Positions 48,440 through 63,300 of a DNA stretch of 64,000 nt are shown one piece after another (the stretch's first letter is position 1; every line of letters starts with the position of its first letter). The stretch comes from Heterostelium album PN500 (Eukaryota; Evosea; Eumycetozoa; Acytosteliales; Acytosteliaceae), in NCBI RefSeq assembly GCF_000004825.1, contig NW_008805068.1, positions 930,001 through 994,000 on the forward strand. The letters run 5' to 3'. The notes under the pieces were generated by a model. The model was not told the origin of the DNA. It saw only the letters and a list, made by a program, of their open reading frames with translations, and ran no database searches. The position numbers were made by a program, and so were the translations under genes.

Positions 48440-51400
48440 TTAAGATAAATTAAATAATTTCATTAACATATGAATTGTCATATTGACATGTAGTGTAATA
48501 CCTTCTAATGGATACTCTTCAATGTGATTCTTACTGTACTCCAAGAGTTGATCCAACTCGAGAGTGACCGTCTTGGAAATGAGTCCGAATTTCGCTTCGA
48601 TCTCAAAGATACCACCTCCCAGTTGCTTAATGTAGACGTTGGTCTTGCTGTGAGATGATTCCGGTAGGTCGCAGTGCAGAACCATACCCTTCTTGACGAG
48701 ATCCGAGAGGATTTGTTTGATTGGCTTCTCCTTGGAGTCGGTGTTGGACTGTTGCTTACGAAGCTCCTTCTTTGCAATGGCTTTGGAGAGTTGTTCGTTT
48801 TGGAATTTAACGAGATTCTCGAGTGGCGTTGTTTCGATTCTGACCTTCTTGAGGAGGTTGTAGAGACGATCGAGTTCCGATCTCATCAATTTATTCTTTC
48901 TCAAGACCGATTGCAATTCCTTTTCTACCTCCAACAAGAAGATATCGTAGACCTCGGGTTCACTGCTGACCAACTCCTGACGGAACGACTTTAGTCGTTC
49001 GATCAACTGGTCACACTTGGCAATCAGTGTCATATTCTCAGCGGTGTTATTACCGGTTTTACAGAATTGAATGGCGTCGAGTAGGATCCTAATCGAGTTG
49101 ACATCCTTCTTGGGTGGAGGTGTCTTTGAGAGGATTTCAATCATCCAGATCTTTGCTTCCTTGAACAAGTCGGGTGGCATCACTGTTTCATTTTCATGGT
49201 TATTGATAAAGGTAAGTTGAATGGAACGGTCACCTTGTTCTGGCAAGAGAATCGGTGATTCCAGTTGATCCAACAACGATTGCAACCACCATGCATCGGT
49301 ACGACCACTGACATGTTGTTTGGGTGAACCGATTTGATATCTACGCTTCTCGGACATCGAGTAGTTCTTCTTGGCGATTTCATTCAGTGTCTTTGGATCG
49401 TAAGAGAGAGTACCAACATCAACCAAATCATAGTAAAAGTCGAGAATGGTTTCGTGTAACCAAATCACTTCTGAGACATTAACGACAGTACAGAAACTAA
49501 TGTTGTTCTCAGCCATAACTTGGTTGTACTCTGTGTAGTGAATGAGTTCATCAAGATCTGGAACGTTGGTAACTGACTCTAAGAATTTGTTGGCCACATC
49601 CTTTTGTGACTCAATCCAAGCTGCAATCTTGGGAGTTGCATATGGATGCAACCAAGCTCTGTTGGAGAATGCCGATTGCAACAATCTGGAAACAAGCGAA
49701 AGATTCATACGTGCCTGTTGTGCAATCAATGGATGTGAGAGAAGTACCAATTCATTCAATAGATCTGGTGATGCAATAATCGATGTAATGAATCTGTAGA
49801 TCAAAAAGTAGTAGGTTACCTGATGATCGTGTTCACCGGACTTCTTTGCAAAACTACAAACCGCCTTCTCGGAGATCTCACGACAGAGGAAACGAAGTTG
49901 CACTGGAATTTGATCGAGCGATTTGACAATGCGATCGAGGAAGTCAGCTCCAAACTCCAAGAGTTGCGAGATACGCGATTGATGTAGTGAAGCGACTTGG
50001 GGATCTCCAAGACATTGATCGAATGTCTTGGCTGAACGATCGGACTTCTTTCCCTCCTTCAACTCCTTGTCACGTTGAAGTTGCTTGTGGATCCAGACTG
50101 GATCAAAGTTGAGATCTAAATCTGGTTGATTCAAAATTCTAAGAATGCCTGGTGTGATTACTTCTTGAAGATACTTCAATCCCTTCTTTCTAAAGTAGTC
50201 AAAGAGCAAGTTCAATGGAACTGATTCCGATGCCATGAACTCTGTCAAGCTGCCGGACGAAGAGATTTGATATTCCAAGGCGAATGACAATGATTTCAAG
50301 AAGAGATCTTCTTCTCTTGGCGATACTTCATAGGGGTAGAGTGAGAGCAACAAACTCTGACTGGTCTTGGAGATCTGGCTGCTACTGAGAAGATACAAAA
50401 TCTTACCCATGACATGTGGTTGGTTTTGGATGTAGTAGAACAAACTCTGGTAGTTACGCATCTTGATTGGATTCAAACCGTTGGCAACACCCTTGACTGG
50501 CTTGATCTTCTTTTTCAACTTCTTGAGTTTCTTTCCTTCTTTCTTGTTCTCCAAGACACGATCGATCGATTTGGTCAGTCTTCTTAGCTCGGTTTGAAGA
50601 TTACGAGTGTTACGGATCTCACCAACGAGATTTCTCTTGAGCTCGGTGATATCTCCAACAAGCTTACCCATATTCTCAAAGGTCGATGGTGATTCAGCAA
50701 GAGTCTTTTGAATTCTGGTGGCAATACGATATTCCTTGAGATTCTCAAGACGTTCTTGTTCGTTTGCCTCGCGATCACTTTTCTCACGCTCCATACGCTC
50801 ACGTTCAGCAATCTCTTTTTCCATACGCTCGCGTTCTTCACGCTCTCTCTCCATACGCTCGCGCTCCGCCAACTCACGCTCCATGCGCTCCTTCTCAAGA
50901 CGTTCACGCTCTACCTTTTCACGCTCGGCTCTCTCCATATCTTCACGCTCTCTCTCCAAACGCTCACGTTCAACACGCTCACGCTCAATTGCCTCACGTT
51001 CCAATCTTTCTTTCTCCAAACGCTCACGCTCTGCTCTCTCTTGCTCCTTACGTTCACGCTCCGCACGATCACGCTCTACACGTTCACGCTCCAAACGTTC
51101 ACGGTCAGCTCTCTCCAACTCCAATGTCTGACGCATGTCAGCAATGGCAGCTTCAGAGTTGAAAAGTGAAGCAACAAGTGCAAGATTCAACTTTGGATGT
51201 CCAAGAGCAATGTCCGATGGAGTCAAGAAACATTTAACACCCAGCTTGTCACATGCATTCGTAATGAATTCAGCTCTAACAAAGAGATTCGATTCGTTTT
51301 GAGCACGTTCAACCAATGTTGAAAATTCAATTGGTACCAACTGAGCAAACAAGTTGGCATAGATAATTGAATCTTGAACATCCTCACTGAAATTGGTAAT

Positions 51401-52969
51401 TCTACGTTCACATCCAGCCTTTTCCAAGTGATAGTTGACCCAACGCAAGAGAATCTGCTCGGCAGAGTGTTCCTCCTTCTCTTTGGTCTTGTGATCTTCA
51501 CCTTCTTTGATTTGTTGATCTTCCTCTTGCTCCTCAAAGAGGATGTCAAGGATTTCATCGTTGGCATTCTGATTTACCATTGCCAAGAGACCGGCTTTGA
51601 TAATTTGCCAAATGATACCCAACACCAAGTATGGAGTGGCATTGACAAGATCTTGTGCACCAATATTCACAATGATACAACCAACTTTTGTTGCATTCTT
51701 GATAACTATATTTTGATTACCGATCTGTTCGAATGGATTCATCTTTAACTTGATAACCAATCCTTTTAGATCAACTTGATTTGGGAATAATGATTCCATC
51801 AATTTACTGAATAAATTCATTGAATAATAATTAGATTATTAATAAATATATATTGTTGTTTTGTTTTCAAAAACTTACTTTAATAATACACCATCATTAC
51901 AAGCTGTAAATAACATATTTGATGATGGATCAATTGGAATATATGCTGAAAGAGTGGTTTGTTGATCACCAAGTCTTTCAGAGATGAATTTAGAGTAGGC
52001 TACTTTCTCTTCCTCCGAGAATGTGTGAACACTACCCTCTTCAGCGTTAGCATTGATCAATGCAACATCTTTCTTTGCAACCTTGGGTACTTCAATTGCA
52101 TCCATATCTTCTTCGTCTTCTTGGTCTACTTCTTCTCGGTATCCGTCTTCTTCGTCGTCTTCTTCTAATTCGCCGTAGTACTCTTCTGCACCGTCAATAT
52201 CTGTGTAGTGATCGTAAAAATTGTTGTATTCGTAATATTGTAATTCCTCAAGTAACTCTTGTTCTTCTTTAGTTAGGAATTGTTGTGGAAGAACAAATTG
52301 TGTTGAATTTCTATTTGATTTGTTTGTGGTTGCTGTTGTTGATGCTGTTGCTGTTGTTTGTTGTTGATATGATAGTTGATGTTGTTGTAGATTCTTTGTT
52401 GTCAATGGTGATGATGATGAAGATGAAGTTGTTGTTGTTGATGTATCTTGACAATATTGTTCAATAAATAATTGTTTTGTCAATTGAAATTGTTTGGAAT
52501 ATCTTTTTGAACAATTGTTATTGTTACTATCTACACTGTTGATACTGGTGTTACTCCTGATACTATCGTTATTATAATATCCGTTTGTCAGAGATGTCTT
52601 CTTTGAAATACTCTGATTGTTGTTGTTGTTGGTATTGTAATTACTGTTGATAATATTATGATTATTATTAATACTCTGATTGTTGTTGGTTGGAGTTGGA
52701 GTTGAATAATTACTGAGTGCACCACCAAAACTATTGGATGATCTGATACTATTATAGCCTAGTGATTGATTGTTGTTGCCGCTATTAAACTGGTTGGGAC
52801 TATAAGATTTACTTTTTTGGACCAATGAATTTCCACTACTGAAACCAATACTATTGTTATTGTCATGATTATGTTGATTAGATTTTTTAATTTGTTCATT
52901 TGATTGTTGTTGTTGTTGTTGTTTTTCATTGGAATAAGAAGAATTAGTAAATGGTGATTTATACATCAT
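48440..52969 (-). CDS. Fimbrin-type CH domains fused to an IQGAP-like GAP-related region
   Basis: Exons 51879-52969 and 48440-51806 (GTAAGT...TTCAG) encode 1485 residues. Order: an Asn/Ser/Gln-rich N-terminus; a CH domain split by the intron (about 315-445: EEEKVAYSKFISERLG, ACNDGVLLNKLMES, IVNIGAQDLVNATPYLVLG), matching fimbrin's first CH; a second CH (about 477-580: ILLRWVNYHLEKAGCERRI, GHPKLNLALVASLFN); a charged coiled coil of RERxERERLE repeats (about 589-724); an IQGAP-type GAP-related domain (about 814-1160: FLKSLSFALEYQI, YYFLIYRFITSIIASPDLL); and an IQGAP C-terminal domain (about 1240-1480: LVKKGMVLHCDLPE, FEIEAKFGLISKTVTLELDQ). It should link actin bundles to Rac/Cdc42-class signalling. 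No IQ motif was spotted, and no clear arginine finger. Confidence 0.88.
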
Positions 52970-55155: not shown

Positions 55156-56678
55156 TTATTTTTTGAATGGTGGTCTCTGACCTGTGAATGGTTGTGGAGG
55201 TTGATATTGATTATTTGCAGCTGGCTGTGGTGGTTGATATGGTACTGGTGGTTTATATTGTGCTGGTGGTGATGGTCTTGCTGGTGGCTGATATTGATTT
55301 ACTGCATGTGAAGGTGGTGAAGTTGGTGCACCATATTGAGAGGGAGTCGGGTACATCTGTTGATGGTGCGAACTATCAATATCTATATCGTGAATCGAGG
55401 ATGGAACATTCTTGAGAGAGAGTGGTCTTGGTGGTGGTGGTGGTTGTTGGTACTGTTGTTGTGGTGGTTGGTATTGTTGTTGTGGTGGTTGATATTGTTG
55501 CTGTGGTGGTTGGTATTGTTGTTGTGGAGGTTGGTATTGTTGTTGTGGAGGTTGATATTGTTGCTGTGGTGGTTGATACTGTTGTTGTGGAGGTGATGGT
55601 TGTGGTTGGTATGGTTGCGGTGAATTGTATGAAGATGGACCTGTTGGTGCGGATGGAGGTGGTGGTGGAGATGGACGATGTGCATTGTTGTTGTATAAAT
55701 TGTTGTTTAATCTGGCTGGACGCTGTGGTTGTCCTCCGCCACCACCGCCATTCTGTGGACTGACAGCTCCACTCTTTATGGAACCTTCTGGTCCGGCTTG
55801 AATGTCCTCGGTGTTTGGTGGACCGTCCGGTAGTAGTACGGTGATTGGATTGATGGCGGGTGGTGGACGTGCAAGCTGTCCGTCGCAACTCGCGAATGCT
55901 TGATACAAACTCTGGAAGAGTGCAGTCTGTGAGTGTTGAATACGCATCAGTGAATCGTCAAACAGCGTGATCTTCTCCTCAAAGAATCGATGAATATCCA
56001 GCAGAGTATTGTAGTTCTTGGTGAGATATGCTTGTTTCTTTGCACGGTTTGTCTGTTCCTCGGCATTGAGCTTATTGAAATCAGCGGATGTCTTCTCGCG
56101 AAGCTGTTTGATACGCTGGTCGGATTGCTCCACCGACAACAACAGGTTGTCACGTGCAGTGATAGAGTCGCGAATACTCTTGATCATATTCATGCATCGA
56201 TTGACACTCTCATTGTATTGCTTGTTGCTATCGATCCAATCGTTGTAGACATTCTCAATTTGTGCACCAATCTGATGACTGTACTGATGCAATGGATGAT
56301 CATCAGGCAAATGTTTAGTTAACTTTTTATTTAAACTCTCTGGATCCAAAAATAACTCTAAATTAAGCAATTAAGTAATTGATTTTGAATATTAGAAAGA
56401 ATGTTAAACATATATAATGTTTGAGTCAATAAAATAGTTACTGGCTAAATTTTTATCACGTTTCTTCAATGCTTCGAAAATCGAGTTTACATGATCCGAT
56501 TCATGTTTGAATTCCTTTCTAGCTTGTTCGAACGATTGATCAGTGTCTCTATTCGGACCACCACCAAGAGCTCTCCTCATCTAAAGTAATATTATTAATA
56601 TATAGTTAAATAAAACTAAAGTCATGTTATTTTAAAAATTAGCTAGCTTACTTTATTTGTAAAATTTGCAAAAGACAT
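55156..56678 (-). CDS. BAR-domain protein with Pro/Gln heptad repeats
   Basis: Exons 56652-56678 (nine codons), 56442-56580 and 55156-56357 encode 455 residues. The N-terminus (MSFANFTNKMRRALGGG) could form a short amphipathic helix as in N-BAR proteins. Residues about 15-213 are three long helices: RKEFKHESDHVNSIFEALKK, LNKKLTKHLPDDHPLHQY, IENVYNDWIDSNKQY, NMIKSIRDSITARDNLLLSV, and a Lys/Glu helix closing with a DIHRFFEEKITLFDDSL block. These show the BAR pattern of curved-membrane dimers. The C-terminal half is Pro/Gln/Tyr-rich with about eight tandem PPQQQYQ units (about 311-367). It is paralogous to the next gene upstream through the same helices, intron positions and linkers (WIDSNKQY against WNDSNQQN). 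Confidence 0.85.
55440..55612. repeat. 21-base tandem repeat encoding PPQQQYQ heptads
   Basis: About eight copies of a 21-base unit (plus-strand core TGTTGTTGTGGTGGTTGGTA or close variants) inside the BAR-protein gene. It encodes a run of PPQQQYQ units. Copy-to-copy differences are mostly silent (GGT against GGA), which suggests selection on the peptide. Confidence 0.8.
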
Positions 56679-57127
56679 TTTTTGTACAACTAAACTACAA
56701 ATAGTAAATTAAATAATATTTAAAGTAATTTTCTCTCTTTACAACAAATTGGTATTATTAAAAATTATGAATCATAAAAAAAAAAATGAAAATTCAATTG
56801 CCTAAACAAGGTTACATAGAGGTCATTTCAAACAAAAAAAAAACCAAAATATAAAAAAATGTAAAATTATTTTAATTGCAATTTATTCCGTTGAAATTGG
56901 GAACACACAAAAATGTAATATAACACTTTAATGTACTTTAACAGTCACTTCGAATATATTATAATCTTTAAATAAATTTTTTAACAATCCAAATATTTTT
57001 GAATTCTATCCCTTTTTTTTTCTTATTTATAATAAAAACAACCAAGATTTAATTAACAATCAACTATTTTAAAATTACAAAAGTATAAATATTTATTTTG
57101 ATTTTTAGAAATAAATTAATAAAGAGA
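56679..57127. other. Spacer between the two BAR-domain paralogs
   Basis: 449 AT-rich bases between the start of the BAR gene and the end of its transglutaminase-bearing paralog, both on the minus strand. It must contain the promoter of the first. No coding block is seen. Confidence 0.6.
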
Positions 57128-59993
57128 TTATTTGATTGGTTTAACAGTCCATTGATCATTTTTCTTAACACCTTCGAAATTACCACTTCCAGATGCATAG
57201 AAGAGTGGGCTTTGCATTATATGTGCACTCTCATGAATGAATGTTGATACACCAGTTTCGATGTTACAAATTTCATCCATGTGGAATACAATGAGTTCAC
57301 CGCAATCATTACCAAAGTACTTGGTTACTAGTGAATCCTTGAGATGTAGATTCCATGTGACATCGACTGGCATCCATCCGATGTTGTCAATCCACACCTC
57401 TGACTTACAGTGCGTTTCGATTCCCTCTGGTGTCGAAAAGTTACCACCACGTCCAATGACCGATCTCGCTGGAATGCCAGAACGTCTCAATATTGCGTTG
57501 TACAACATTGTCAGACATCCGCAATCACCCTTACCAATCTGAGTGGTAGTGACAATTGGTTTCCATCCGATTTCCTCATAGTTATACTTGAAGTTCTCAT
57601 TGATGAAAAGGTTAACACGATAGGCAAAACATAGCGGTGTTTCTGCTGGTTCGTTTGAGGCGCCATTCGATTGAGGTGCTTGGATGAATAGATTATTCTT
57701 ATTGATGAAATCATTAAAGATTGGATCGTCTAGAGTGTAAGACTTGGAAGGTCTAGTGTAAAAGTTGAATTCCTCAGGTGAGAGAGGTTCGACGCTGCTA
57801 TCCCATTGGTCAGTCTCGACCATGTCGATACGATAGAGATCCGCTTCGATAATGAAACGACCACGAAGTCGACCGGTATCATGTTGTGGCATCACACTCG
57901 CTGGAACGAGTGCACGGAATACATAATGGTAGTCGGTAGTGAGCAGTTCACCATTGGTCAACCAATTGTTATTGAAATCATAGATCTCGAGACCGGAACT
58001 ACGAACATTTTGATTCATAGAGGTTGGTGGTGCTGGCATGATGACAGACCAATTATCGGGTTGTAAGTTTGGTGCTACATAGCTGAAATCAAAGGTTCCA
58101 ATGACCGAACGAGTGAATGTTGGATTGAGTTTGAATTTTTTGTGTGGTCCAAAGAGTTCACGGTGTTTCGCAAAGTTGGCGGATGGCAACAAGTTGGATT
58201 TGCTGTTGGATCTGCTACCTGAAGCAGCAAGAGAATTTAGATTAACTGATGGTTTAGTGGCTGTTGGTTGTTGTGGAACTGATGGTTGTCTTTGTAACTG
58301 TGGTGGTGGTTGTTGTTGAATTACACTCTTTGGTCTACTGGCTGGTGGCATACTAGGTTGAGATTGTTGTTGTTGTTGTTGAACTGGTGGTTGTTGTTGT
58401 GATGCAGCAGGCTTTGTAACAATTCCCATAGAGATTGGTTTAATTGCATTCTTATTGATTTGTGATGGTAATACACCACCTGATTGTTGTTGTTGTACTG
58501 GAGGTGGTGCTGATGAATTTGATTGTACAGGTGGTTGAGAATTTGGGTTTGATTTAAGATAACTTCCACTCTTTGCAACCTGATTAGTGTTGGGATTCGG
58601 TGCGATTGGAGTATGTAATGCTGGCTGAGGAGTTGAATTGTTGAAACTATTGCTCTTGGGTGCAGCCTTTAGTGGAACAGATTGTGGTTGTGCTGGTTGT
58701 TGTTGGAATGATTGCTGAGAAGATGTCACAGAGTTATTGAAACTATTACTCTTGGGTGCCGACTTTAGTGTTACAGGTTGTGGTTGTGTTGGTGATGGAG
58801 CTTGGTTATATGTCTGTTGCTGTGGTGGTGCTGGCGATTGATGTCCTGGGAATAATACTTCGTTATGAACCAATAGTTTCTTTTTGGTGAATGGTTCATA
58901 TGGTTTGACAAGATCAACAGGTGGTCCTGAGAGAGTTGGTGGTGACATTAATTGTTGTTGTTGTTGTTGTTGCTGTGGTGGTTGTTGAGGTGGGGGAGAT
59001 ATTCTCTTTTGTGATGGAGTTGGTTGAGCGTTTCCAGGAGATTGCATTGGTGTTGAATTTGGTTGATATGCATTGTTGCCATAGGAAGAGGAAGAAGGTG
59101 GTGGTGAATAGTCATCAACTTCAAGAGTTGAGTTTGTTTGGATACCAGACATATAGTTAGAGACTGGATTGTTTTTGGGTGGTGGTTTCTGGAGTACTTC
59201 GGAACACTCAAAGAGATTGTTATGAATGTTTTGGAAGAGATTAGAGAGTGACTCTTGAATTTGCATCAATGGCAAATCGAAAATATCGTTCTTCTCCTCA
59301 AAGAATTGGAATATCTCTTGCATAACGCTGGTGTTCTTTTGTTGGTAAGATTGCTTCTTCAATTTGTTATTGTTCTCTTCGGCGGGCAACTTTGATGGAT
59401 CCTTTGGTGGCTTCTCACGCAGCGATTTAAGTTTGGAATCGGAATTCTCCAGATCCATAAGATATTGGTCACGTGTAGAAATCGAATCCTTTATCGATTT
59501 AATTCTTGCAACAGTTCTACCGATTGTTTCATAATTTTGTTGATTTGAATCCTGATTCAATTATTATTATTTTAGGTTAATTTACTCTTTTTTAATAAAT
59601 ATTTATAACTACATACATTCCAATTATTAAATGAATTTTCAATCAATTTATTGGTTTCAATACAATTTGCAGCAAGTGGATGATCATTGTGGTAATACTT
59701 TGTAATTGTTTTACCAACACAATCAATATGTAAGAAAGTTTCTAAAAAGAAATAAATAATTGGAATCTATATTAATATACTCTTGCTTTGTTGACAACTC
59801 TTTTTTTGTTTTTATAAAATGTTTTGTTGAATTAATTACTTTTCAAGTTTTTGACACGCTTCTGCAAAGATGTGTGAATGGCAAATACATATTCCGAAAC
59901 ATATTTGAATTCCTTTCTGGTATTCTCGAAATTGACATCGGATTTCGATGGTCCACCAGAAATAGTATTCTTAATCTTTTGTAAAATACTCAT
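57128..59993 (-). CDS. BAR domain fused to a transglutaminase-like domain
   Basis: Exons 59840-59993, 59617-59741 and 57128-59551 encode 900 residues. Residues about 1-210 are the same BAR-type helices as the neighbouring paralog (RKEFKYVSEYVFAIHTSLQK, ARIKSIKDSISTRDQYLMDL, IFQFFEEKNDIFDLPLMQI) after an amphipathic start MSILQKIKNTISGG. A Gln/Pro/Ser-rich linker (about 220-560) follows. The C-terminal part (about 570-900) holds a transglutaminase-like fold: RVNLFINENFKYNYEEIGW, then GKGDCGCLTMLYNAILRRSG with Cys770, ETHCKSEVWI with His807 and MPVDVTW with Asp823, the full Cys-His-Asp triad. Possible roles are cross-linking or proteolysis at curved membranes (inference). No signal peptide, so it is cytosolic. 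Confidence 0.85.
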
Positions 59994-60332: not shown

Positions 60333-63300
60333 TTATTGATGTGGTAATGGTTCGTCAACAACAGGGATTGACAATGGTGGAGTGGTTGGGGCATTGGTCA
60401 ATGAAGATGTTGATGAGGAACGTGATAATGATGACGACGATGATGAATTGATATTACTGCCGCTTGTCGATGTCTTGATTGACAGTTGAATTGGTATTAC
60501 CTTGTCGAGTAGTGTTTTTAAATCTTCAGAGGACAACAATTGCATTGATTTAATTTGTTCTTCATTGTAGTATCGCTTGGCATACTGATTGATCTGGTCG
60601 AAACCATCAGCAATATTCGTACGAATCGGCTTCATCAAAAGATTCTGTGTCATATTCGATAGATATACTTTCATTCTGGCGATGATCTCTGGTAAATATG
60701 TCTCTATTCTTTTTACAACTTCTTTAATAGTTTCATTGATTCTCACTTGTAATAATAATTATAATAATAATAATAATAATTAATTTGCAAAAGTTAATAT
60801 AAATTAAAAAATTAATACACATTTATATATTAATACATACTTGGTTCAGCAAAAGGTTGTTGAGATAAAGAACTATTAACAACATTAGAGTTATCTCTAC
60901 TTGATTGATTAAGATAGACTGAAATCTTTGTTAGGATGGTCAAGAGTGGATCGATCGTATAGTTTGATGTTGAAAGAATAAATGATTCAATTACCAATTT
61001 CAATTCTTTTTCTAAATCCTAATAATAATAATAATACAGTCAGTCAATTAAAGTGTTTAATAATTCATTGGTATATTATAAAGTAACAATTGTTGTTGTC
61101 ATACTTTTTTAGAATCTATACTGGTATTTGTAACTCTTGGGTTTGCAGCAGAGGCAATTACATTGTATATTGGATTATTTGTAGAAAGTGCAAATAAAGA
61201 ACCATAATTATACATTGTAGAGAGTGCATCTATTGATAGATATAGAATTAATAATTATAAGCAATATAATTGTATAACATTATTAATTAATTAAACATAC
61301 GCTTTAAATTTGGAAAATCTACAATCTTTTCAATGATTACAAAGTTAATATCGAATGGTGTAATCTGTTCACGTAATACTATAAAGTATTTAATTAGAAA
61401 TAGTTGAGAATCGGTTATTGCAAATGGATTATCCTATTATAAATTTAGATAGATAGTTAGTAAGTTAGTTAGTAGCTAGTTAGATTATAATTGTTACTTA
61501 AACTTACTTGTTTTGTTGCAATTAATGAACTTGCTTTTATGAGTGTATATGTACATGCTTCAACAGCTTCTTGTGCCAGACCTTCGAAGATCTTGGTATC
61601 GACTACCAGATAGAGTTTCGATAGGCATGTCAGTGTCTTTTCTAGTGTTGGATACCACAGAGAGTACATTGACTTTGGTGAGGCTTCACCCGATGCCGAC
61701 AGCTTCGTTATGTGATTGGGATAGTCAATGTCTGCCGGCGATGGACTAAACGTTCTAATTTCATCGCGAATGAATGTTTGAATTAAAAACAACAGTCTCT
61801 CTTGAATATCTTGTAGCATTCGCTGCACCGCCAGTCTGAGACCGTTACAATATCGCGTCGATTGCTCAATGATATCATCCAATATCTCATTCCTTATCAG
61901 ATGTGCCAAGTTACACAATTCCTCAAACGAATGAATATGTATATACACCGGTCTAACTGTATCATACAACTGTTGTGCATATTCATCTAACAATTCACTA
62001 CAATACACATATATGTTAGTTTGTTTTTTCCACAACAAATAGTAGTAGTTATATGATATTATTATTATTGTTGTTGTTACATACTTAAAGTTAGCAGTTT
62101 GTTTATCAAAGAAATCGATATAGATTTGATATTCATTTTCGAATATCTGCACCATGTAGATACATAGATTCTGAACGAGCGATGGAACGTTGGCGTTGTT
62201 GGTGTTTCCGGGTGTGGTGTCATAGAGTGATTTAGTGAGTTCCTGTAGCTTCAGTGTGATGATTGGTGTGAGGATCAGCTTCCGATTCTTAAAGTAAATC
62301 GAATGACAATCTCTTATGTATGATACGTATTGACCAACTGCACGCTTCTCCAACTCCAAACAAAGCGGTCGCAGTTTTGGTGCGAATGCACGAAACTTGA
62401 TATTCGATATCTGGAAATCACTGTCGATATCCTTCATCGATGTGAGAATCTCTTTCGTTATGATCTTGAACGACGCCGATATATAATCCTTAATCAATCC
62501 CAACGCTCTTTGGAATAATAAAGTATATTGTAAAACATATTTAGATGTACCTTGGAAATTAACCTATCAACCAAACAAACACAATTATATTAATATTCCA
62601 ATTATTTCCGAGATCAAATAAATATATTATCAATGATAATATCAATATTTACATTCTTTTTCATGAATTGTATACAATCCTCCAGTGTCTCTAAACTAGA
62701 CATAAAGTTTGGATCGGTAACTGTAAAGCTTGAACTATTGAATTTCTTTGTACTTTGATCCAACTCCAAGTAATATCTCAATTTTTCATGTATAGTATGT
62801 ACAATATATCTTAATCTTAGCTAAGATTTCATTAAAAGGATATTAGTTTAATTAATAATTAAATGAATATTATTCACAAATTATTTATAAGTACTTACTT
62901 CTTCTTTAAAGAATTTCTCACAAGAGTCATGTAGTTGAGATGTCTTCTTGGTGAGTGTGAAATAATCGGTTTGAATACTGTTGATAAGTGTTTCACAATC
63001 TTGTACTTGTGCTTGTAGTTCATCAGTACCTTGTCCATAGCTTACTATAGTCTCTAAGAACCATTCATATTGATGTAGATGTGTCGATGTTTTCTCAATC
63101 AGCTTCAACCAATCATAGAAATCTGCTAAACTATCTATTGCTTTATCTGGTAGTTGTGTTGTACTCTTCAAACTGCCAGTAGTGGTACCACTTTCACTTT
63201 CCAACGATGATTCATTCGCTTGTTGTTGTTGTTGCTGCTGTTTCTCTTGTTGTTCTGATTCTTCTGCTGCTTCTTTTAACCTTTTTTGTTCTAACAATTC

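Follow-up and report, generated by a model that had tools for sequence, protein, structure and literature searches.

The F-BAR partners of the fungal transglutaminase-like protein Cyk3 include Cdc15/Imp2. In the yeast study PMC4758748, Cyk3 is described as keeping His and Asp, with the catalytic Cys absent. Mutation of both His and Asp (cyk3-2A), when combined with C2-HOF1, is lethal according to that paper. When the transglutaminase-like domain of Cyk3 was joined artificially to Hof1, an F-BAR protein, the product (TG-Hof1) rescued a cyk3 point mutant, whereas loss of CYK3 was not rescued (PMC4758748). A join of this type can thus function even where the protein has no catalytic Cys. Here we describe a pair of genes in a window of 64,000 nucleotides from Heterostelium album PN500 (contig NW_008805068.1, positions 930,001 to 994,000), one of which carries a join of this kind. 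They lie side by side on the minus strand and are called the right gene (59993-57128) and the left gene (56678-55156); all positions are those of the 64-kb window. The right gene combines a BAR-type helical module, a long linker and a transglutaminase-like module in a single polypeptide.

One reading frame joins the two modules

The right gene consists of three exons with GT..AG ends at both introns and encodes a protein of 900 amino acids (Table 1). Its third exon has 807 open codons followed by a stop, while the longest open runs in the other five frames reach 65-115 codons. The GC content within 57300-59549 is 0.37-0.49 in every 150-base bin, compared with 0.18 between the two genes (56700-57100); as it is coding-like throughout, no intergenic stretch lies between the BAR and transglutaminase parts. 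An artefact of gene model or assembly, with two transcripts or a false join, could be argued from the fact that the gene models were built from genomic DNA alone and from the GC content at third codon positions (GC3), which is lower in the linker (0.218) than in the BAR part (0.426) and the transglutaminase part (0.404). The low linker value probably results from its CAA/CCA-rich repeats. However, a single open exon with coding-like GC from end to end speaks against an artefact, as does an unlinked gene of the same genome (C2, see below) with the same architecture, in which most of the BAR module, the linker and the start of the transglutaminase module share one exon, and we regard an artefact as hardly credible. 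The BAR-transglutaminase fusion of the right gene is real. The initial annotation had placed a Gln/Pro linker ahead of a transglutaminase-like domain with Cys770, His807 and Asp823: the linker is present, the three residues carry exactly these numbers in the spliced protein, and the domain is found in the right copy and not in the left one (Pfam and remnant comparison). A near-perfect repeat in the linker, KSAPKSNSFNNS / KAAPKSNSFNNS (58630-58770, minus strand, identified by eye), is a possible short binding motif.

Both domains belong to known families, and as judged by titles and abstract starts, none of the open PMC papers listed for the two domains describes their direct fusion. As this covers neither subscription articles nor preprints or protein databases, an unannotated record elsewhere is quite possible. 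The comparison with Cyk3 made in the initial annotation holds in part. As in the right gene, a transglutaminase-like domain works beside a BAR-superfamily protein in the Cyk3/Hof1 system, and the TG-Hof1 rescue of the cyk3 point mutant supports the parallel (PMC4758748). In that account, however, yeast Cyk3 and its F-BAR partner are separate proteins, whereas the right gene encodes one polypeptide with a module of predicted N-BAR and not F-BAR type. Furthermore, Cyk3 as described there has an SH3 domain and no catalytic Cys; the right gene has Cys770, and Pfam reported no SH3 domain (E up to 1) in its BAR module, exon 3 or transglutaminase module, so that it departs from the Cyk3 family in both features. 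The fusion physically couples two functions that are held by separate proteins of one budding-yeast cytokinesis complex.

The transglutaminase-like module

The Pfam Transglut_core profile matches the right module with E 1.1e-16 and 61.5 bits, well over the curated cut-off of 23, and the triad Cys770/His807/Asp823 aligns with the triads of C3, a further gene of the same genome, and of bacterial proteins. A three-row transglutaminase profile searched against the PDB found the transglutaminase-like entries 6g49 (5.7e-4) and 3isr (8.9e-4); with the right module as a single phmmer query, the sole hits were 6g49 (E 0.15) and an unrelated row, and an NCBIfam scan of the module gave no match. The best match found outside the genome is a protein of Parabacteroides distasonis (E 1e-8; 27.7% identity, with 75% of the module aligned), and the two records found in a plasmid search are both from this species. 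A phage search with the module yielded no relative, nor did prokaryote and viral contigs when searched by short back-translated patterns, which cannot show absence. The Parabacteroides protein WP_008781120.1 (Bacteroidota) resembles the right gene in the core with its triad and in some of the sequence ahead of it, but differs in its length of 480 residues, a signal-peptide-like start (by eye), additional C-terminal sequence and the lack of a BAR module.

Paralogues in the Heterostelium album genome

The Pfam transglutaminase core occurs at five places in the 32.9-Mb assembly: the right gene and the loci C2, C3, C6 and C17. By sequence, C17 resembles a peptide N-glycanase, and C6 looks like a separate protein whose N-terminus has a hydrophobic stretch, while the right gene, C3 and C2 form one transglutaminase subfamily. 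C2, on another contig and unlinked, is a second BAR-linker-transglutaminase gene with the same order of parts. Most of its BAR module, a Pro/Gln linker of 357 residues and the first part of its transglutaminase module lie in one exon, and the core follows the linker at E 2.4e-13 (Pfam). Of the triad, C2 retains Cys and His but not Asp. C3 has all three residues and the transglutaminase module closest to that of the right gene (33%), but its N-terminus has no BAR-profile match. At C3 (L012 3749-5585, plus strand) the module stands behind a different N-terminal domain, which gave weak FGF-like matches only (E 0.12 and E 0.5).

A further gene, C31 on contig 31, resembles the left gene in having a BAR module and a Pro/Gln tail without a transglutaminase domain. 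A search for a transglutaminase remnant behind the left gene or C31 gave two matches, both in L014, with E 3.6 and 6.9 over 12 and 8 residues. The right/left/C31/C2 BAR family thus has at least four members, the genome having been searched by exon and best candidates, and two of the four found carry a transglutaminase-like domain at the C-terminus. Matches to the SH3-binding consensus number 0 in the right linker, 3 in the left tail, 2 in C2 and 1 in C31. In a transglutaminase tree of the three modules and two bacterial rows, C2 and C3 group with a support of 55 on long branches, which does not separate one BAR fusion event from two. With two fusions and two BAR-only paralogues, a single genome offers a comparison set.

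BAR identity of the helical module

The Pfam BAR profile matches the right module over positions 10-233 of 234 with E 1.5e-5. A three-row profile of the right, left and C31 modules searched against the PDB matched BIN2 (2.5e-4 and 3.1e-4), amphiphysin (4.4e-4) and BIN1 (2e-3), with alignments that span almost all of the module, and the next row had E 0.25. A fold model was computed for the left exon 3 part with the right exon 3 part as the sole other row, most of helix 1 being outside, and its long helices at 21-87 and 90-161 are taken as BAR helices 2 and 3. A Foldseek search with this model placed BAR-superfamily chains in all of the first 11 of 575 rows, led by BIN1 (E 5.6e-3, probability 1.00, TM 0.64). 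The C31 BAR module in turn finds, at E 0.002, a gene on C4 of the same genome that itself lies above the Pfam BAR cut-off (7.4e-12). The N-termini have hydrophobic moments of 0.52 (right), 0.52 (left) and 0.49 (C31), values equalled by 6%, 11% and 2% of shuffles, respectively; the start of C2 reaches 0.33, equalled by 31% of shuffles.

For C2, the three-row BAR profile gave E 1.2e-5 with the first 186 residues and 0.0014 with the full protein (Z set to 12000), and the C3 protein as a control fails this profile (E 810). Alignment of C2 by hhalign gave a probability of 81.5, and BLASTP (database size set to 5 million) linked it to C31 at E 1e-4. Compared with shuffles, C2 scores z 11.6 with C31, 7.3 with the right gene and only 2.8 with the left gene. 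In our view the kinship of the C2 module with the right/left/C31 family appears real but distant, and it is the weakest of the BAR links.

Taken together, membership in the BAR family is well supported by these sequence and model matches in combination, no single one being strong. The BAR assignment of the initial annotation therefore holds, with whole-length Pfam and PDB profile matches and the Foldseek list behind it, although the Pfam score of the right gene stays below the curated cut-off. The closest known group would be the amphiphysin/BIN N-BAR proteins: the right gene shares with BIN2, amphiphysin and BIN1 the whole BAR module, a possible amphipathic N-terminus and a Pro-rich region after the BAR module. 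It differs from them by its C-terminal transglutaminase-like module and by the SH3 domain, which Pfam did not report, and sequence identity to BIN1, BIN2 and amphiphysin is low (9-12% in Foldseek rows).

Proposed function

The interpretation we consider the better founded, with moderate confidence, is that the right gene encodes a curvature protein of the N-BAR (amphiphysin/BIN) type carrying a tethered catalytic domain with a transglutaminase fold. A number of results weigh against it. The curated Pfam BAR cut-off of 28.5 is missed by the right (25.2 bits) and the left module (14.5 bits, E 0.028), and Pfam BAR gives no match for the N-terminal modules of C31 or C2. The best PDB hit of the left module as a single phmmer query, BIN1, has an E-value of only 0.42. 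The fold model is limited to the 166 residues of left exon 3 (pLDDT 75, pTM 0.53), none of the 575 Foldseek rows reaches E 0.001, and in a second structure aligner BAR rows do no better than those of SMC, pore toxins and further helical proteins. For the transglutaminase module, single-sequence fold prediction reached a pLDDT of only 32.5. BLASTP of C2 gave E 67 to the right gene and nothing to the left gene, and exon searches of the genome with the right, left, C31 and C2 genes never joined the C2 BAR module to the others. Finally, Asp is absent from C2, and activity is therefore not required in every fusion.

The sub-threshold Pfam BAR scores and the mixed helical rows of the second aligner would fit a generic coiled coil instead of a BAR module, in which case targeting to curvature would be wrong. 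Against this stand the whole-length amphiphysin/BIN matches, which come from two kinds of search (PDB profile and Foldseek), and the link of C31 to a gene above the Pfam BAR cut-off, and we give a coiled coil little chance of being correct.

The strongest rival concerns the other end of the protein. The transglutaminase-like part could be a non-catalytic scaffold in the manner of Cyk3, connecting membrane marked by the BAR module with a synthase or with regulators of actin. In PMC4758748, fungal Cyk3 acts on the chitin synthase Chs2 without a catalytic Cys, and the TG-Hof1 rescue points the same way; C2 has lost Asp and is still an open gene, which favours a scaffold role for the C2 copy. The right gene and C3, however, retain Cys, His and Asp, which a pure scaffold would not need, and the full triad in these two favours catalysis. 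For the right gene we therefore hold a scaffold to be somewhat unlikely.

If the right gene does encode an N-BAR protein with a tethered catalytic domain, its BAR module would dimerise, perhaps also with the BAR-only paralogues, and the N-terminal helix and the curved dimer would bind bent membrane. Through the long linker, predicted to be disordered from its composition, the catalytic domain would gain access to substrates close to the membrane. These would probably be proteins of actin structures in endocytosis or cytokinesis, and the domain may act on them as a thiol acyl-transferase or hydrolase. That the join recurs in a second gene, unlinked to the first, points to a protein whose role is to carry an enzyme or scaffold to curved membrane. 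Only tentatively do we extend this to a dictyostelid-type family in which BAR dimers would concentrate an active Cys-His-Asp acyl-transferase or protease on bent membrane and cross-link or trim cytoskeletal or endocytic proteins, with BAR-only paralogues possibly mixed in and C2 as a pseudoenzyme partner. The genes would provide a simple handle on whether transglutaminase-fold proteins at curved membrane are enzymes or scaffolds.

Gene structure and origin of the pair

Membership of the two adjacent genes in one family was confirmed, their BAR modules being 43.7% identical over 222 aligned columns, as was the short first exon. The left gene encodes 455 residues when a 27-nt first coding exon is included. 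Its reading frame and its GT..AG ends make this exon probable, as does a phase-0 intron at the same spot in C31, since in both genes the GP motif ends nine codons after the intron; MAFFT gaps this short stretch around the H0 intron differently from the codon count. The left protein thus probably starts with MSFANFTNKMRRALGGGP and not with MRRALGGGP. The H0 intron is common to the left gene and C31, and the right gene is without it. All three share a phase-1 intron in helix 1, which precedes exon 2 of the right gene and lies 23 residues past the F of the KEF motif. C2 has an intron of the same phase 24 residues past KEF as counted from the gene models; MAFFT instead inserts a gap behind KEF, which places the C2 intron roughly ten columns off. 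The claim that both genes are split near WxDSNQQ was incorrect: an intron lies there (59616-59552) in the right gene only, and the left gene reads through.

A tandem duplication had also been proposed. The genes are adjacent and of one family, but they are not clearly each other's closest relatives: BAR identity over aligned columns is 45.9% for right and C31, similar to the value for right and left, and 37.9% for left and C31. In 2000 bootstraps the closest pair was right and C31 in 1391, left and right in 604 and left and C31 in 5. The right gene is thus as near to C31 as to its neighbour, and the H0 intron links the left gene with C31, which makes a tandem duplication of the pair no more than a plausible origin.

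Table 1. Coordinates of exons, modules and catalytic residues of the right and left genes (window positions) and of two related genes elsewhere in the genome
Feature	Position	Strand	Content	Basis
Right exon 1	59840..59993	-	Start of BAR helix 1, preceded by a putative amphipathic H0 (MSILQKIKNTIS)	Splice model
Right exon 2	59617..59741	-	Remainder of helix 1 and beginning of helix 2	Helix limits inferred from left model
Right exon 3	57128..59551	-	BAR helix 2 except for its start, helix 3, linker, transglutaminase-like module	
Right BAR module, residues 5-214	59189..59981	-	Both introns within span	Pfam BAR and PDB profile matches
Right linker, residues 223-552	58175..59164	-	Pro/Gln/Ser-rich (60 P, 56 Q, 51 S of 330)	
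Transglutaminase-like module, residues 553-900	57131..58174	-	Probably beta-rich N-terminal part, then core	
Pfam Transglut_core, residues 728-823	57362..57649	-		Pfam match
Catalytic residues	57521-57523; 57410-57412; 57362-57364	-	Cys770; His807; Asp823	Read in spliced protein
Left probable first coding exon, 27 nt	56652..56678	-	MSFANFTNK	In-frame GT..AG; equivalent C31 intron
Left exon 2	56442..56580	-	Remaining H0 and first part of helix 1	Splice model
Left exon 3	55156..56357	-	Remaining BAR to ~55873, followed by a tail rich in Pro and Gln that contains QYQPPQ repeats; transglutaminase absent	
C2 exons	L013 1666-1783, 1858-4006, 4074-4485		892 residues	Splice model
C31	L014 3215-4802	-	BAR and Pro/Gln tail	

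Neighbouring genes

Upstream of the right gene, a minus-strand frame at 61469-62563 contains the C-terminal domain of COG3, a Golgi tether. On the other side, 3.3 kb from the BAR pair, lies a frame of 1131 amino acids (48440-51835, minus strand) with two calponin-homology stretches and a RasGAP region in an IQGAP-like layout. The yeast IQGAP Iqg1 is found in one complex with the F-BAR protein Hof1 and the transglutaminase-like Cyk3 (PMC4758748); the proximity of the IQGAP-like frame to the BAR pair may be due to chance.

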